From: Wenzhouxiangella sp. XN79A
Lineage (GTDB): Bacteria > Pseudomonadota > Gammaproteobacteria > Xanthomonadales > Wenzhouxiangellaceae
Assembly (NCBI RefSeq): GCF_012272825.1
Contig: NZ_JAAWWS010000146.1
Coordinates: 62,001-126,000, forward strand
Reading direction: 5' to 3'
Length of the DNA: 64,000 nt
Below the pieces are notes generated by a model. It did no database searches and had not been told where the DNA came from. It saw only the letters and a program-made list of their open reading frames with translations. A program made the position numbers and the translations under genes. Shown piece by piece: positions 614 through 47,709 of the stretch. Each line of letters begins with the position of its first letter. The stretch's first letter is position 1.

Positions 614-1837
614 GTGCTGGATAATTTTTCTACAAGCCTGAATCGGCCGAAGCAGCCCATGGTGACCCTCCAGACGTGGATAGCGCAGAACTCGGAAAAG
701 CTCGGCAGTAGATACGAGGAATTGTTCCTGCGGACTGTCCTGCCGCGGGTCCCCAACCTTGACCTGCATTACCTGCAGGCCCAGATGTCGTTCGAGGACC
801 TGGACGGCAAGCGCCGCTATTGCGACTTCGCGATCGCCGAAACAGAGGATCTGAAGGTCGCGATCGAGATCGACGGGTACGACAAGACCGGGCGTGGCCA
901 GGGCATGACGCGAAACGAGTTCCTGGATTGGCAGCGGCGCCAGGCCGGCCTGACATCGCAAGGATGGCACGTGCTGCGATTCGCGAACATCGATGTTCGG
1001 GATCGACCCGATGACTGCGCCGAGCACATTACGCTGCTTCTTCGCAAGTTGCGCGCTCGCCTTGAGCACCATACGAAATTGCACAAGCGTTTGATTGAGC
1101 TAACCCAGCGACTGGAAAAAGCCAACAAAGAAAATCGCAAAGCGATTCAAGATGAAGTCGGGAAATACGGCGGCGCACTGAAGCAGAAAGAGGGTGCGTA
1201 TCAGAAGGAAAAAACGCGACGAAGCGAAATCGAGAAGGAACTCTCTGAGGTTCGCAAGCTGCTGGAGCGAGCCGAAGCCGAGAAAACGCTAGGCCCCTCC
1301 GAAGAACTAAGGTTGCGATCGCTGGAACAGACCCAACGCATCGAAAAGCTCGAAGAAGAGGGAGGCATTATGAAGACGACCATCTGGGCGTTCGCTATCA
1401 TCATCATTGCTGTGATCGCAGCCGGCGTTGTCCTGATCTCCGGCGGACTAGAGCGAGGTGCCTTGCAAAGCCCCGCGCTGAACGTCCAACCGCCCATCAG
1501 CCCTCGGGTTCCCGCAGGGGCAAGCTGCGAAAGCCCGATTCGTTGGTCGGAAGCCGGCTCGCATGTCGGCGAATCAATGTCAATAACAGGACCAGTGCGC
1601 TCGATCACCTATCGCAGTCAAAGCCGAGGTCAGCCGACATGGATCAACATCGGAGAGGACTTCCCGAGTTCCAGACGGCTTGAACTTGTTATCTGGGGCC
1701 GAAACCGAGCTTCATTCGCCTCACTATTGGACCAACTTTCGGTAGGCGATGTAATTTGCGTGACCGGAGAAGTATCCAGCTATGAGGGGAGGAGCCAGAT
1801 CGAATTGCGTTATCCCGGCCAACTCGAGACCGGTTGA
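614..1837 (+). CDS. Membrane-anchored DUF559-like endonuclease with coiled coil and C-terminal OB-fold
   Basis: Seen: residues 30-135 resemble the very-short-patch-repair/DUF559 nuclease fold, with an N-terminal Glu pair (E35/E36), D71, the core strand VAIEIDGYD (E85, D87) and Q108 followed by GWHVLRF. Residues 140-250 are a charged, heptad-like coiled coil. Residues 253-275 form one hydrophobic membrane helix. Residues 310-405 look like a small beta-barrel (TGPVRSI, WINIGEDF, VGDVICVTGEV), in the style of OB-fold nucleic-acid-binding tails. The GTG start at 614 gives the full reading; ATG at 659 is an alternative that keeps every domain. Inferred: a nuclease tethered to the inner membrane, acting in DNA restriction, uptake or repair. 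The domain order is unusual and I know no named family with it. Confidence 0.7.
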   Translation: MLDNFSTSLNRPKQPMVTLQTWIAQNSEKLGSRYEELFLRTVLPRVPNLDLHYLQAQMSFEDLDGKRRYCDFAIAETEDLKVAIEIDGYDKTGRGQGMTRNEFLDWQRRQAGLTSQGWHVLRFANIDVRDRPDDCAEHITLLLRKLRARLEHHTKLHKRLIELTQRLEKANKENRKAIQDEVGKYGGALKQKEGAYQKEKTRRSEIEKELSEVRKLLERAEAEKTLGPSEELRLRSLEQTQRIEKLEEEGGIMKTTIWAFAIIIIAVIAAGVVLISGGLERGALQSPALNVQPPISPRVPAGASCESPIRWSEAGSHVGESMSITGPVRSITYRSQSRGQPTWINIGEDFPSSRRLELVIWGRNRASFASLLDQLSVGDVICVTGEVSSYEGRSQIELRYPGQLETG

Positions 1838-2097
1838 CTCGTCCCGCAGTGATTCCAAACGCAACTAATATTTTTCAACGTCGAACAGTGTAGCGGAACG
1901 ATTGCCAACCGGGATGCCGTGATTGTCGCCGATGGAGATCGCTTTTCGTGACCCTCCGAGACAGGCCACGCGGCCACCGCACTTGTCGCGCTTCTTCCTA
2001 CAGGCGCGGTTGTACGGATGCAACCGCTCTACAGATTCCGGCCGGTCGTCACCGACGAGCTACAAACAGGCATTCATCCGAGCGGTCGGGCGCTGGA

Positions 2098-2958: not shown

Positions 2959-3162
2959 ATGGCCTGGATGTCGAATCAAGTCTCCACGGGTGTGCTTCGC
3001 ATTGGGGAGATCACAGATCAGGCCGACCTGGAGGTAAATCTGAAGGAAAGCGCCATTCCGGACTTCATCGATGAAGTCACGGGCGCGAACTATCCCGAAT
3101 TCCTTGAAGCTCGCAGAAAACTCATGGCCGATATGATCCGGGAGTATTACAAGTCGCTGTAG
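2959..3162 (+). CDS. Small hypothetical protein or 3' remnant of a larger gene, 67 aa
   Basis: The frame MAWMSNQVSTGVLRIGE...MIREYYKSL is acidic and helical, and looks like a genuine protein end. Coding-like residues (TPINITIKDNPPKEY) run upstream of the ATG at 2959 and then into the dispersed repeat at 2785-2895. That suggests the repeat cut off the 5' part of a longer gene. No ribosome-binding site is obvious at the ATG. It may be a remnant; function unknown. Confidence 0.35.
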   Translation: MAWMSNQVSTGVLRIGEITDQADLEVNLKESAIPDFIDEVTGANYPEFLEARRKLMADMIREYYKSL

Positions 3163-3460
3163 TGCAGCATTTGGGCCGCCAGAAGCACCGTAAATTGGTG
3201 ACTGGTCATTCGCCTATAGCATCATATTCTTCGCTTGCATTGGTCGCCGACGATCCTTGATTCCCAGGGTCGAGAGCTTGTCGTCGTTCGGTGGCGCGAA
3301 ACCGGGATACGCAGGTTACTGATCGCGACCCAGCCAATCCCACGCGGCTCGGCGGATCGATCCGGGCCTGTATCAGAATATCGCCCTGACATTGCCGCAG
3401 ACAGCGGTGGCATCGATCAAAGCCCGCCAGCCTGATTTCAGCGGAATGCCAGCGCTCAGG
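3163..3460. other. Intergenic gap, nothing recognised
   Basis: About 300 bp between the small frame ending at 3162 and the convergent SEC-C gene. Short frames exist on both strands but none has a family resemblance or a good start. No strong hairpin followed by T-run was found. Confidence 0.4.
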
Positions 3461-43372: not shown

Positions 43373-44410
43373 CTACCTGACCGCCACCACGGCCACCGCG
43401 ATCATCAGGACCGATGCGCCGAGCAGGCCCAGCACGATGACCCAGGCCATCGGCCGGCCGAAATTCAAGGTGTACCCCACCCCGAAGCGCTTTTCCAGCC
43501 ACAGCGCCGGATCGTCCGGGTTGAAATAGACCATGCCGAGCTTCCAGGCGGCATCGGGCGAGCGGTCACCCTCGTCGGGGTGGCCGGGCCGGTCGAAGCG
43601 TCCGCGCCACCGCATGACCAGCGGCACGGCCAGCAGGCCGAGGATCAGCAGGATCTGGACCGTCGCGCCCGGCCCACCGGTGATCCACCGCTCGCCGTAG
43701 AGCACGCCGAGGCTGATCCAGCCGCCGAGCAGGCCGCAGCAGACCATCATCCACAACAGCATCCGGTTGATCGCCCGGACCCGCGAGCGATGCCCCGGCA
43801 GCCGGCGGATCAGCAGCGCCATCGGCATGACCAGGTGCATCAGCACCAGGGTACCGAGCATCGACAGCGGTGCGCCGTAGGTCGCAGCAAACCCGATCGG
43901 CGCGCCGTCGGGCGCCGGGATCGGACCGCGGGCGGCCAGCCAGGCGATCGCGCCGAGTACCGGCAGGTACGGTAGCAGGTGCAGCCCGAGCGGGCGCGGC
44001 ACGACATCCACAAGACGGTCCGGCGGCAGGAGCTCGATGGCGCGTCGCGCCTGGTCGGAGCGACGGAAGGCCAGCGCCCGGCCACGGCAGTGCAGAAACG
44101 TGCCGAGTGCCCCGAACGTGATGATCAGCACCGCCACGGTGTGGGCGACGGTCATCGCCGGCTCCGGTGCCAGCCCGCCGGTGATCGGCGTGACGATGAT
44201 CGACACCGCGGCCAGCGCGATCAGGGTCGCTGCGATGACGCCGGCCAGGTAGCGGCGACGGATCGCTTGCCCGAGGTCGGACTCGGCGAAGCCGGCCGGC
44301 ACGGTGACGGCGAAGAAGGTGCTGCCGCGCGAAAGCCCGGGCATGGCAAGCATCAGGCCGCCGATCGCAAGAGGCACCAGGTAGGCAGAACCGAACATCC
44401 ATAGCGTCAT
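43373..44410 (-). CDS. DUF1648/DUF5808-like multi-pass membrane protein, 345 aa
   Basis: About eight hydrophobic helices. The C-terminal segment WKLGMVYFNPDDPALWLEKR then FGVGYTLNFG is the DUF5808 signature seen in SdpI/YdeH-type membrane proteins that sit beside YtrA-like GntR regulators in Gram-positive and some Gram-negative bacteria. It overlaps the GntR stop by 4 nt, so it is translated from the same mRNA. Likely the regulated membrane partner; substrate unknown. Confidence 0.78.
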   Translation of the reverse strand: MTLWMFGSAYLVPLAIGGLMLAMPGLSRGSTFFAVTVPAGFAESDLGQAIRRRYLAGVIAATLIALAAVSIIVTPITGGLAPEPAMTVAHTVAVLIITFGALGTFLHCRGRALAFRRSDQARRAIELLPPDRLVDVVPRPLGLHLLPYLPVLGAIAWLAARGPIPAPDGAPIGFAATYGAPLSMLGTLVLMHLVMPMALLIRRLPGHRSRVRAINRMLLWMMVCCGLLGGWISLGVLYGERWITGGPGATVQILLILGLLAVPLVMRWRGRFDRPGHPDEGDRSPDAAWKLGMVYFNPDDPALWLEKRFGVGYTLNFGRPMAWVIVLGLLGASVLMIAVAVVAVR

Positions 44411-44829
44411 GACGCGTCTCCTTCGGGGTCGAGAACTCGACGGGTTCGTTGATCCAGCGCGGCGCGCGCGAGTCCGCGGGCCTCGTAGTCGGCCCGCAGG
44501 TCGCGCAGCGCGCTTTCGTACTCGTCACCGAGCCGGGCCTGCTCGGCGTTCGACAATCGCGGCCTGCGGCGATCCAGCACCACGCTGCCGGCCCGCCGCT
44601 TCAAGGCCAGCCAGCCCTCGGCCTCGAGTTCACGATAGGCCTGGGCGACGGTATTGAAGTGCACGCCCAGGTCGCGGGCCAGCGCCCGCGAGGACGGCAG
44701 CAGATCGCCCGGCGCCAGCGCGCCGTCGAGCAGGCAGCGGCGCAGCCCGCGGGTGATCTGGTGCACCACCGGCACGTCCGACTGGAGGTCGATTTCGAGC
44801 CGGGGCGCGGCTTTTTGTACATCGCTCAT
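44407..44829 (-). CDS. GntR-family (YtrA-type) transcriptional regulator
   Basis: ATG at 44829 gives MSDVQKAAPRLEIDLQSDVP, then a GntR winged helix (HQITRGLRRCLLDGALAPGD, LPSSRALARDLGVHFNTVAQ, AYRELEAEGWLALKR). The short helical C-terminal domain, about 140 residues in total, marks the YtrA subfamily. The start codon lies inside a 9-bp-arm palindrome (44814-44836), so autoregulation is expected. The second site at 44865-44883 lies toward the divergent signalling gene. Confidence 0.9.
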   Translation of the reverse strand: MSDVQKAAPRLEIDLQSDVPVVHQITRGLRRCLLDGALAPGDLLPSSRALARDLGVHFNTVAQAYRELEAEGWLALKRRAGSVVLDRRRPRLSNAEQARLGDEYESALRDLRADYEARGLARAALDQRTRRVLDPEGDAS

Positions 44830-44836
44830 GTACAAA
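44814..44836. promoter_or_regulatory. GntR operator site 1, over the gene start
   Basis: TTTGTACAT (44814-44822), spacer CGCTC, ATGTACAAA (44828-44836): a perfect inverted repeat with 9-bp arms overlapping the ATG (44827-44829). YtrA-type GntR repressors bind such A/T-edged palindromes. Confidence 0.82.
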
Positions 44837-44864
44837 CTGTATCGAATCTGCCGCGCCGAGTCAA

Positions 44865-44883
44865 TGTATGGGCTCGCCATACA
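44865..44883. promoter_or_regulatory. GntR operator site 2
   Basis: TGTATGG (44865-44871), spacer GCTCG, CCATACA (44877-44883): 7-bp arms, the same 5-bp spacing and similar edges as site 1. It lies 36 bp further upstream, between the gntR gene and the CHASE-GGDEF-EAL gene. Confidence 0.8.
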
Positions 44884-44982
44884 AAACGCACCGAAACCCG
44901 GGCGCGGCAATCACCCCGGGCGGCGAAACATGGCATCCTGCACGGGACTTCGGCCCCGTTGGCTGCCAGAAGGCCCGTTCGC

Positions 44983-47709
44983 ATGCCTCGACGTTCATCG
45001 CGAAGCCTGACCGACCGGCTGTCGCACTCCTCGCCGGTGATCCTGGTGCTGATTGCGCTGGCGGGGCTGGCGGTGACCGCCTGGGCCACGTCCGGGGTGC
45101 TCGAAAGCGAGCACCAGCGCAAGCTCGGCGAGCTGTCCGAGCGCATCGAGCAGGTCTCGGGCACGGTCCGCGGCCACTACGCCAAGTACGAGACGCTGCT
45201 GCACGCCGGCCGCGCGCTGTTCGCCGGCTCCGACTTCGTCTCCGAAACCGACTGGGCGCTGTTCACCGGCGACGTGATGGCCGGCCAGAAGATGCCGGGC
45301 CTGGTCGGCCTGAGCTGGGTGGCGTTCATCGACGACCCGGTCGGAATGCAACGGCTGTCGAACGAGAAACTCCGCGCCGGCCGCCCTCCGCTGGTGATCC
45401 GGCCGCCCGGCGATCGACCGTTCTACTGCCTGATCGTCTACAACGAGCCGAGCGCCGAGAACGCGACGTCGATCGGCCGCGACGTCTGCACGGTGGACGC
45501 GCTGCAGGATCCGCTTCGGCTGACCCGCGAGCAGCCCTCGGTGTTCCTGTCCGAGCCGCTGAGACTGGTCCGACCGGACGGCGGGTTCGACCCCGGAGTG
45601 GTGATGCTGATCCGGGTCGAGGGCGATTCGAACCGTCACACCGGCTGGATCGGCGCCTCGCTGAGGCTTTCCGAACTGTTCGGCAGCCCCGATCCGACCC
45701 GGGACGGCGGCGGCTTCGAAGTGCTCGACATCACCGGCGGCGAACGCTTCGCCGAATCGGTCTACGGCGAGTTGCCGGACGACGACTCGCTGCTCGGTCG
45801 CGTGCTGCAGGTCGAGCGAACGCTCGAGGCCGGCGGACGGACCTTCCGGATGACCCTGGCCGAGACCGGTCGGGCGACCTGGGCGGCCGGCATGGTGCTG
45901 CTGGCCGGCCTGGTGTCCACCGCGCTGCTGGTCGCCTACCTGCTGACCCTGTTCCGGACCCGCGAGCAGGCGCGCGCTCTGGCGGCGCGAACCAGCGGCC
46001 AACTGGAGGAGAACGAACGCCTGCTGGCCTCGATTACCGACAACATCTTCGAGGGCATCTATCGCGGCCAGCCCGACGCGGGCCTGGTCTACGCCAACGA
46101 ATCGCTGGCCCGGATGTTCGGCTACGACGGGCCGGAGGCCATGCTCGAAAACGCCGGGCCGATCCTCTACGCGCGGCCGGAACAGCGCGATGAACTGCTC
46201 GAACGGCTGCAGCGCGACGGCTTCTACCGCGACGTCGAAGTCGAGTTCATCCGTGCCGACGGCAGTCGTTTCGTGGGCGTCAACAATGCCGTCGCCCATT
46301 TCGACGGCGACTGGAACGTGGAGTACTTCGACGGCGCGATCTACGACATCACCGAACGCAAGGAGGCCGAGGCGCAGGTCCACCGACTGGCCCACTACGA
46401 CATCCTGACCGGACTGCCGAACCGCGCCATGCTCGATCGACGACTGCGCCAGGCGATCCACCATGCAGAGTCGGTCGGCCAGTCGATGGCGCTGCTGTTC
46501 ATGGACCTCGATCACTTCAAGACCATCAACGACTCGCTCGGCCACAGTCTCGGCGACGAGCTGCTGGTCCAGGTGGCCAAGCGCCTCGGCAGCGGCCTGC
46601 GCAGCGAGGATTCGGTCAGCCGGCTGGGCGGCGACGAATTCCTGATCCTGCTGGCCGACGTCGATGCCGAGGGCGCCGCGCGCGGTGCCACGCGCATCCT
46701 GGACCTGTTCACCGATCCGTTCGTGCTGGAAGGCCACGAGCTGCGCGTCAGCCCGAGCATCGGCATCTCGATGTTCCCCGACGACGCGGTCGATGCCGAA
46801 GTGCTGATCCGCAACGCCGACGCGGCAATGTACGCGGCCAAGGAACGCGGCCGCGCCAACTACCAGTTCTTCGTGCCGGAAATGAACGCCCGGGCGCGCG
46901 AGCGGCTGACGCTGGAAAGCGATCTTCGCCAGGCGCTGCGTACCGGCCGGCTGTCGCTCCACTACCAGCCGGTGGTGCGGATCGCCGATCGCGAAGTCAT
47001 CGGCGCCGAGGCGCTGCTGCGCTGGTCGCACCCGGAACTCGGCGACATCCCGCCGGCGCGCTTCATCCCGATCGCCGAACAGAGCGGCCTGATCGTCGAG
47101 ATCGGCGACTGGGTGATCGGCGAGGCCTGCCGGCAGCTGGCCGAATGGATGCGCGCCGGCCTGCCGCCGCTGCCGGTGGCGGTCAACGTTTCGGCGCTGC
47201 AGTTCTGGCGCGGCGGCCTGGTCGACCAGGTCCGCAACGCGCTCGACGCCCACTCGCTGGATGCCGAACTGCTGGAGCTGGAGTTGACCGAAAGCGTGAT
47301 CATGCGCGATGCCGAAATCGCCAGCCGGGTCATCTCGCTGCTCAACGGGCTGGGCGTGCGACTGTCGATCGACGACTTCGGGACCGGCTATTCCAGCCTG
47401 TCGTACCTGAAGAAGTTCTCGATCAGCAAGCTCAAGATCGACCAGTCCTTCGTACAGGACCTCGGCCACGACCCCGACGACGCGGCGATCGTCTCGGCGA
47501 TCATCAGCATGGCCGAGGACCTGGGGCTGGAGGTGGTCGCCGAAGGCGTGGAAACCGACGACCAGCGGCGCCTGCTGCAGGCCCGCGGATGCGCGCTCGC
47601 GCAGGGCTTTCTGTTCGACCGGCCGATGACCGCCGAAGCGTTCCTGGAACGGTTCCGGGAGTCACGCCGCATCGAGCCGCCGTCGAGCGACGACAGCGAC
47701 CGGGACTGA
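44983..47709 (+). CDS. CHASE-PAS-GGDEF-EAL c-di-GMP signalling protein, 908 aa
   Basis: ATG 44983 fits the N-terminal helix (VILVLIALAGLAVTAWATSG). Order: membrane helix, periplasmic CHASE domain (about 50-300), second helix (about 305-325, MVLLAGLVSTALLVAYLL), PAS (about 350-460), GGDEF (about 465-630), EAL (about 640-895). GGDEF is complete (SRLGGDEF) with RSED, an RxxD inhibitory site five residues upstream. EAL is complete (GAEALLRW, LELTESVIM, IDDFGTGYSSL, KIDQSF, VVAEGVET). Both synthase and phosphodiesterase look active on paper; the sensor probably sets the balance. Confidence 0.93.
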   Translation: MPRRSSRSLTDRLSHSSPVILVLIALAGLAVTAWATSGVLESEHQRKLGELSERIEQVSGTVRGHYAKYETLLHAGRALFAGSDFVSETDWALFTGDVMAGQKMPGLVGLSWVAFIDDPVGMQRLSNEKLRAGRPPLVIRPPGDRPFYCLIVYNEPSAENATSIGRDVCTVDALQDPLRLTREQPSVFLSEPLRLVRPDGGFDPGVVMLIRVEGDSNRHTGWIGASLRLSELFGSPDPTRDGGGFEVLDITGGERFAESVYGELPDDDSLLGRVLQVERTLEAGGRTFRMTLAETGRATWAAGMVLLAGLVSTALLVAYLLTLFRTREQARALAARTSGQLEENERLLASITDNIFEGIYRGQPDAGLVYANESLARMFGYDGPEAMLENAGPILYARPEQRDELLERLQRDGFYRDVEVEFIRADGSRFVGVNNAVAHFDGDWNVEYFDGAIYDITERKEAEAQVHRLAHYDILTGLPNRAMLDRRLRQAIHHAESVGQSMALLFMDLDHFKTINDSLGHSLGDELLVQVAKRLGSGLRSEDSVSRLGGDEFLILLADVDAEGAARGATRILDLFTDPFVLEGHELRVSPSIGISMFPDDAVDAEVLIRNADAAMYAAKERGRANYQFFVPEMNARARERLTLESDLRQALRTGRLSLHYQPVVRIADREVIGAEALLRWSHPELGDIPPARFIPIAEQSGLIVEIGDWVIGEACRQLAEWMRAGLPPLPVAVNVSALQFWRGGLVDQVRNALDAHSLDAELLELELTESVIMRDAEIASRVISLLNGLGVRLSIDDFGTGYSSLSYLKKFSISKLKIDQSFVQDLGHDPDDAAIVSAIISMAEDLGLEVVAEGVETDDQRRLLQARGCALAQGFLFDRPMTAEAFLERFRESRRIEPPSSDDSDRD

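Follow-up and report, generated by a model that had tools for sequence, protein, structure and literature searches.

Organization of the gntR locus

The window analyzed here, a stretch of 64,000 nucleotides, carries on its minus strand a gene encoding a 140-residue GntR-family protein (gntR, 44407..44829) and, overlapping it by the sequence ATGA, a gene for a 345-residue membrane protein (43373..44410), with eight hydrophobic segments in its hydropathy profile and a C-terminal DUF5808 domain (PF19124, 1.8e-13). A mechanical list of open reading frames opens the gntR frame at an upstream TTG (44910); the ATG was preferred here, as it fits the orthologues. A gene encoding a 908-residue CHASE-PAS-GGDEF-EAL protein (44983..47709, plus strand), with two hydrophobic segments and with the GGDEF and EAL motifs present, is transcribed divergently from gntR.

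The GntR protein is YtrA-like. Its N-terminal region matches the GntR winged helix (PF00392, 1.9e-14, 53.5 bits, cut-off 27), and a structure model built from 5 input sequences (mean pLDDT 79) places two helices (94-117 and 122-133) and a four-residue helix (135-138) after this domain, in agreement with the short two-helix C-terminal domain of about 50 residues that characterizes YtrA regulators. In this subfamily the regulator gene opens an operon that also encodes a membrane or ABC-transport protein; likewise, gntR precedes the gene for the DUF5808 protein. The best match among proteins of solved structure, both by sequence (1.2e-17) and by fold, was YtrA of Sulfolobus acidocaldarius (6sbs).

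Two palindromes at the ends of a predicted gntR promoter

The sequence-only reading had described two palindromes with common spacing in the region upstream of gntR, one of them over its start codon, and both were found as described. The proximal putative operator, O1 (44814..44836), is a 23-bp palindrome that reads TTTGTACAT-CGCTC-ATGTACAAA and contains the gntR ATG (44829-44827, minus strand). The distal putative operator, O2 (44863..44885), has the core TGTATGG-GCTCG-CCATACA (44865-44883). Both have a 5-nt loop and fit the common frame TGTA-N11-TACA.

The window contains 19 perfect palindromes in which arms of 7 nt enclose a 5-nt loop, and O2 alone is hence ordinary; only one has 9-nt arms, and O1 and O2 are the only pair of such palindromes lying less than 60 nt apart. 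The search for further genomic copies proposed in the sequence-only reading returned none, with O1 and O2 as the only instances of TGTAY-N9-RTACA in the 3.75-Mb genome, but the pattern read backwards gave an equal count, so that this number is not significant by itself. Single sites could therefore be due to chance; the adjacency, pairing and conservation of the two sites are not.

Promoter-like sequence, absent from the sequence-only reading and added here, was identified between the two palindromes. A strict scan of positions 44700-45050 returned a single match (9/12, shuffle mean 0.0), a predicted sigma70-type promoter directed toward gntR on the minus strand (44836..44864), with a near-consensus -35 box (TTGACT, 44864-44859), a 17-nt spacer and a -10 box that matches the consensus poorly (TACAGT, 44841-44836); a looser scan yielded further matches (7/12) on both strands. 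The O2 core is contiguous with the -35 box (CATACA-TTGAC), and O1 starts at the last base of the -10 box, which thus runs into O1.

With the start point set 7 bases beyond the end of the -10 box, transcription of gntR is predicted to begin at 44829 (minus strand), within O1. This position is the A of the gntR ATG and the gntR mRNA is therefore probably leaderless; the same rule applied to the sequences of the relatives described below predicts leaders of 0-3 nt. Relative to this start, O2 would be centered at about -45 and O1 at about +5. An RNA hairpin at O1 was considered and rejected, because the left arm of O1 would remain untranscribed if transcription starts at the ATG.

Conservation of the twin sites and their promoter

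Orthologues of gntR (E of 1.6e-66 or better, with a limit of 1e-30) were identified in 5 of 43 genomes of the family, 18 of which fall below 90% completeness or above 5% contamination. The twin pattern was found once each in the same five genomes, and its reversed control in none of the 43. The two features are thus jointly present in 5 genomes and jointly absent from 38, with a probability of about 1e-6 if the genomes were independent, which they are not. The gntR genes of G010 and G066 are 89% identical, and the five loci therefore represent about four lineages. Beyond these orthologues, the next match among 299 genomes of the order reached 1.2e-22, and one match besides that of the window itself (2.4e-25) was obtained in 369 genomes of the class, with 11-13 candidates per genome scored in both cases.

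The distance between the centers of O1 and O2 is 49, 49, 50, 50 and 50 bp in the five loci, whatever the neighboring gene. It corresponds to 4.7-4.8 helical turns, and contact between dimers is not implied, since the spacing is not a whole number of turns. Aligning the five promoters gives 87 columns, of which 29 are invariant; these are confined to the palindromes O1 and O2 and to the TTGAC of the -35 box, with none in the promoter spacer or the flanks. The invariant blocks are, in order, TGTAT, ATACATTGAC, TTTGTACA, a single G at the loop edge in O1, and GTACA. All five loci hence conserve TGTAT and ATACA in O2 and TTTGTACA and GTACA in O1, together with a fixed difference in the arms (TGTAT in O2 versus TGTAC in O1). 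The long palindrome with GT and AC distant from its center that is typical of YtrA operators is thus present as sequence in 5/5 loci (TGTA-N11-TACA), in agreement with the GntR consensus GT-Nx-AC and with the half-site placement of YtrA regulators as outlined in PMC4494728.

The coding sequences of gntR in the four relatives are 55-68% identical to that of the window, and the five genes agree at 10 of 78 third codon positions (columns 13-90). All five use GTA for the Val codon that lies under O1; GTA accounts for 6 of the 227 Val codons in six genes of the window, the O1 codon included, which indicates that constraint acts on the DNA at this site. The likeness between the window and G004 is high for the bracketed promoter (z 13.0), but the stretch between the -35 box and O1 is also alike on its own (13/23, z 4.7), so that part of this likeness reflects shared descent.

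The exact co-occurrence of the twin pattern with the gntR orthologue, and the absence of a second copy of the pair from the 43 family genomes, point to GntR as the likely binder of O1 and O2. Palindromes of the TGTACA type are used by other regulators, such as YefM antitoxins, and could in principle belong here to another DNA-binding protein controlling gntR; in view of that co-occurrence, we regard this reading as extremely improbable. The contiguity of O2 and the -35 box and the fixed difference between the arms, which suggests two affinities, could also be read as mixed control, with GntR at O2 (about -45) activating in the manner of a class II activator and at O1 repressing, so that a fixed set point results. 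Activated promoters seldom need a near-consensus -35 box such as the one found here, and the nearest relative of solved structure is a repressor, making this form of control very unlikely.

The conserved sites follow gntR and not the divergent gene

The genes surrounding gntR differ among the five loci. A relative of the CHASE-GGDEF-EAL gene (50% identity over the sensor part) lies beside gntR in only one of the four other loci (G004). According to our reading of the translations, the neighbor in G010 and G066 is a divergent ECF-sigma-like gene, and in G063 the nearest plausible upstream gene is oriented like gntR, apparently leaving gntR without a divergent neighbor. The twin pair hence persists in three of the five loci without the CHASE-GGDEF-EAL gene and, since both the pair and its spacing are kept while the neighbor changes, the sites follow gntR and not the adjacent gene.

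The sequence-only reading had assigned the second palindrome to the c-di-GMP gene and proposed that the regulator governs both its own membrane partner and this second-messenger protein. The first half of the proposal is supported by the conserved sites and their co-occurrence with gntR: the ATGA overlap suggests that the DUF5808 gene would be co-regulated with gntR, the predicted promoter of which is clamped by the two sites. The second half is not supported, given that O2 adjoins the -35 box of gntR and that the pair is kept beside other neighbors. Loss of the sites in relatives that keep both genes, which would have spoken against the proposal, was not observed, as G004, the one such relative found, retains both; this conservation is, however, explained by gntR alone.

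A divergon in which O1 serves gntR and O2 the CHASE-GGDEF-EAL gene, with a single regulator linking the membrane partner to c-di-GMP, nonetheless draws on several observations. The two genes diverge both in the window and in G004, where a weak plus-strand promoter-like match (7/12) overlies O2 at the same place, and the divergent neighbors of G010 and G066 leave room for a loose link to whichever gene lies there. Against it, the spacing of the sites is the same beside an ECF-sigma-like neighbor or in G063, and the interval between O2 and the start of the GGDEF-EAL gene (97 nt in the window, 160 nt in G004) is weakly alike (z 2.0, with 12 of 300 shuffles as good, for 97 versus 130 nt tested). 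As described in PMC4494728 for FadR and HutC divergons, double sites serving separate operons spread with intergenic length and those acting jointly hold their distance; the constant distance between O1 and O2 is unlike the former.

Comparison of the window, G004 and the three loci without the gene revealed no site or promoter conserved as the divergent gene's own, and the twin pattern was absent from eight family genomes in which the sensor part has distant matches only (26-34% identity). A plasmid search with the GGDEF-EAL gene returned no match. We consider the divergon unlikely, and the CHASE-PAS-GGDEF-EAL gene is probably not a target of GntR. To infer shared control from the divergent arrangement of the two genes would be misleading here, as the conserved sites track the regulator.

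Distribution of the membrane partner

A DUF5808 gene or its remnant was found downstream of gntR in all five loci. In G010 (L027, about 3080-3430, minus strand) the DUF5808 gene lacks its middle part and has lost its frame, and both operators are intact. Across the phylum, DUF5808 was detected in 2 of 398 genomes, namely that of the window and one from another family with a borderline match (L098, G991, near 1501-1575). The domain also matched in 3 of 14 control genomes, among them that of S. acidocaldarius. A search of the contig collection with the membrane protein matched a pattern in 187 stretches and confirmed none; this search is insensitive and missed the known relatives L034 and L035. 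Literature searches returned no paper for the term DUF5808 (open-access literature), nor for DUF1648 together with GntR.

Searches for further GntR targets

Searches for wider targets were conducted with the pattern TTGTAY-N9-RTACAA, to which the two sites of the locus present 0 and 1 mismatch in each of G000, G004 and G010. Allowing up to 2 mismatches, the pattern was found at 16, 11 and 24 places in these genomes, respectively, and its reversed control more often (42, 15 and 50); sites with 1 mismatch outside the locus numbered one in G000 and one in G010. In the 43 family genomes, a sequence-only promoter model recovered the five loci with values between 1e-16 and 1e-20, and all remaining matches were weak (best, 0.047). 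A wider regulon was therefore rejected, as there is no second pair in these genomes and one-site matches fall below the control count, and the GntR regulon probably consists of this operon alone.

A twin-site scan of the contig collection identified seven stretches, three of them the known loci L033-L035 and four in other phyla; no gntR gene was recognized by eye within 1.5 kb of the latter four. A Spirochaetes contig (L037, 4305-4357) carries a twin-like pattern before a pair of genes for 82 and 89 residues, the translations of which resemble a YefM-RelE toxin-antitoxin operon. As a paralogue control, 21 more distant GntR loci were inspected by pattern count only, given that a general test for twin sites proved too strict and recovered 2 of the 5 true loci; one locus (L048) contained one TGTA-N11-TACA site and none contained two. 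In L048 (G208, about 1821-1839, minus strand), the single site lies just before the ATG of a distant short GntR gene, with a membrane-protein-like gene downstream.

Proposed mechanism and relation to known YtrA systems

The position of the sites suggests that GntR represses its own operon. Specifically, we consider it likely that O1 and O2 are twin operators at both ends of the gntR promoter that mediate autorepression of a YtrA-type gntR-DUF5808 operon. A GntR dimer on O2 would block the -35 region, and a second dimer on O1 the edge of the -10 box together with the start point and the ATG; with both sites filled, the two-gene operon would be shut off, and the regulator would keep its own level and that of its membrane partner low until a signal releases GntR. 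Several points weigh against this reading, namely the poor -10 box, the fractional number of helical turns between the sites, the shared descent behind part of the likeness of the window and G004, the single sites usual in YtrA systems, and the broken membrane gene of G010, where both sites are kept. More tentatively, the two operators, each with its own conserved fifth arm base (T or C) and fused to the ends of one leaderless promoter, might be occupied one after the other, so that regulator and partner are kept at a graded level. No paper combining leaderless mRNA, autorepression and a start-codon operator of a GntR regulator was found in the literature search.

The closest known system is that of S. 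acidocaldarius (Saci_1851-Saci_1850; PDB 6sbs), described in PMC6746942, in which YtrA acts from a site over the start point to repress the operon that encodes it and a membrane protein; its regulon is very small, with one further locus. Like the protein studied here, it is a short GntR protein whose gene heads an operon shared with a membrane protein, and autorepression and an operator over the start are what is proposed for the window. In contrast to the 14-bp core site with flanking half-sites reported at each of the two YtrA target loci, here two TGTA-N11-TACA sites flank a single -35/-10 promoter of the bacterial type, and the pair was found at no other locus. The first C-terminal helix is also long here (94-117), while in the Sulfolobales it is described as 4-7 residues shorter than in Bacillus subtilis and Corynebacterium glutamicum (PMC6746942). 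The gntR-DUF5808 pair is possibly related to the Sulfolobus operon of YtrA and its membrane protein.

The likeness to the B. subtilis YtrA type, found in ABC-transporter operons, encompasses the winged helix followed by a short two-helix C-terminal part, the regulator gene in first position and a palindrome with GT/AC distant from its center; the partner is an ABC transporter in that type and a DUF5808 membrane protein here. According to PMC4494728, genes under YtrA regulators mostly have a single site and very few have two, as opposed to the two sites found here, and two full-size operators would, if true, be rare for a YtrA regulator. The gntR promoter would thus provide a clean, testable switch for a poorly studied pair formed by a short GntR regulator and a DUF5808 membrane protein.
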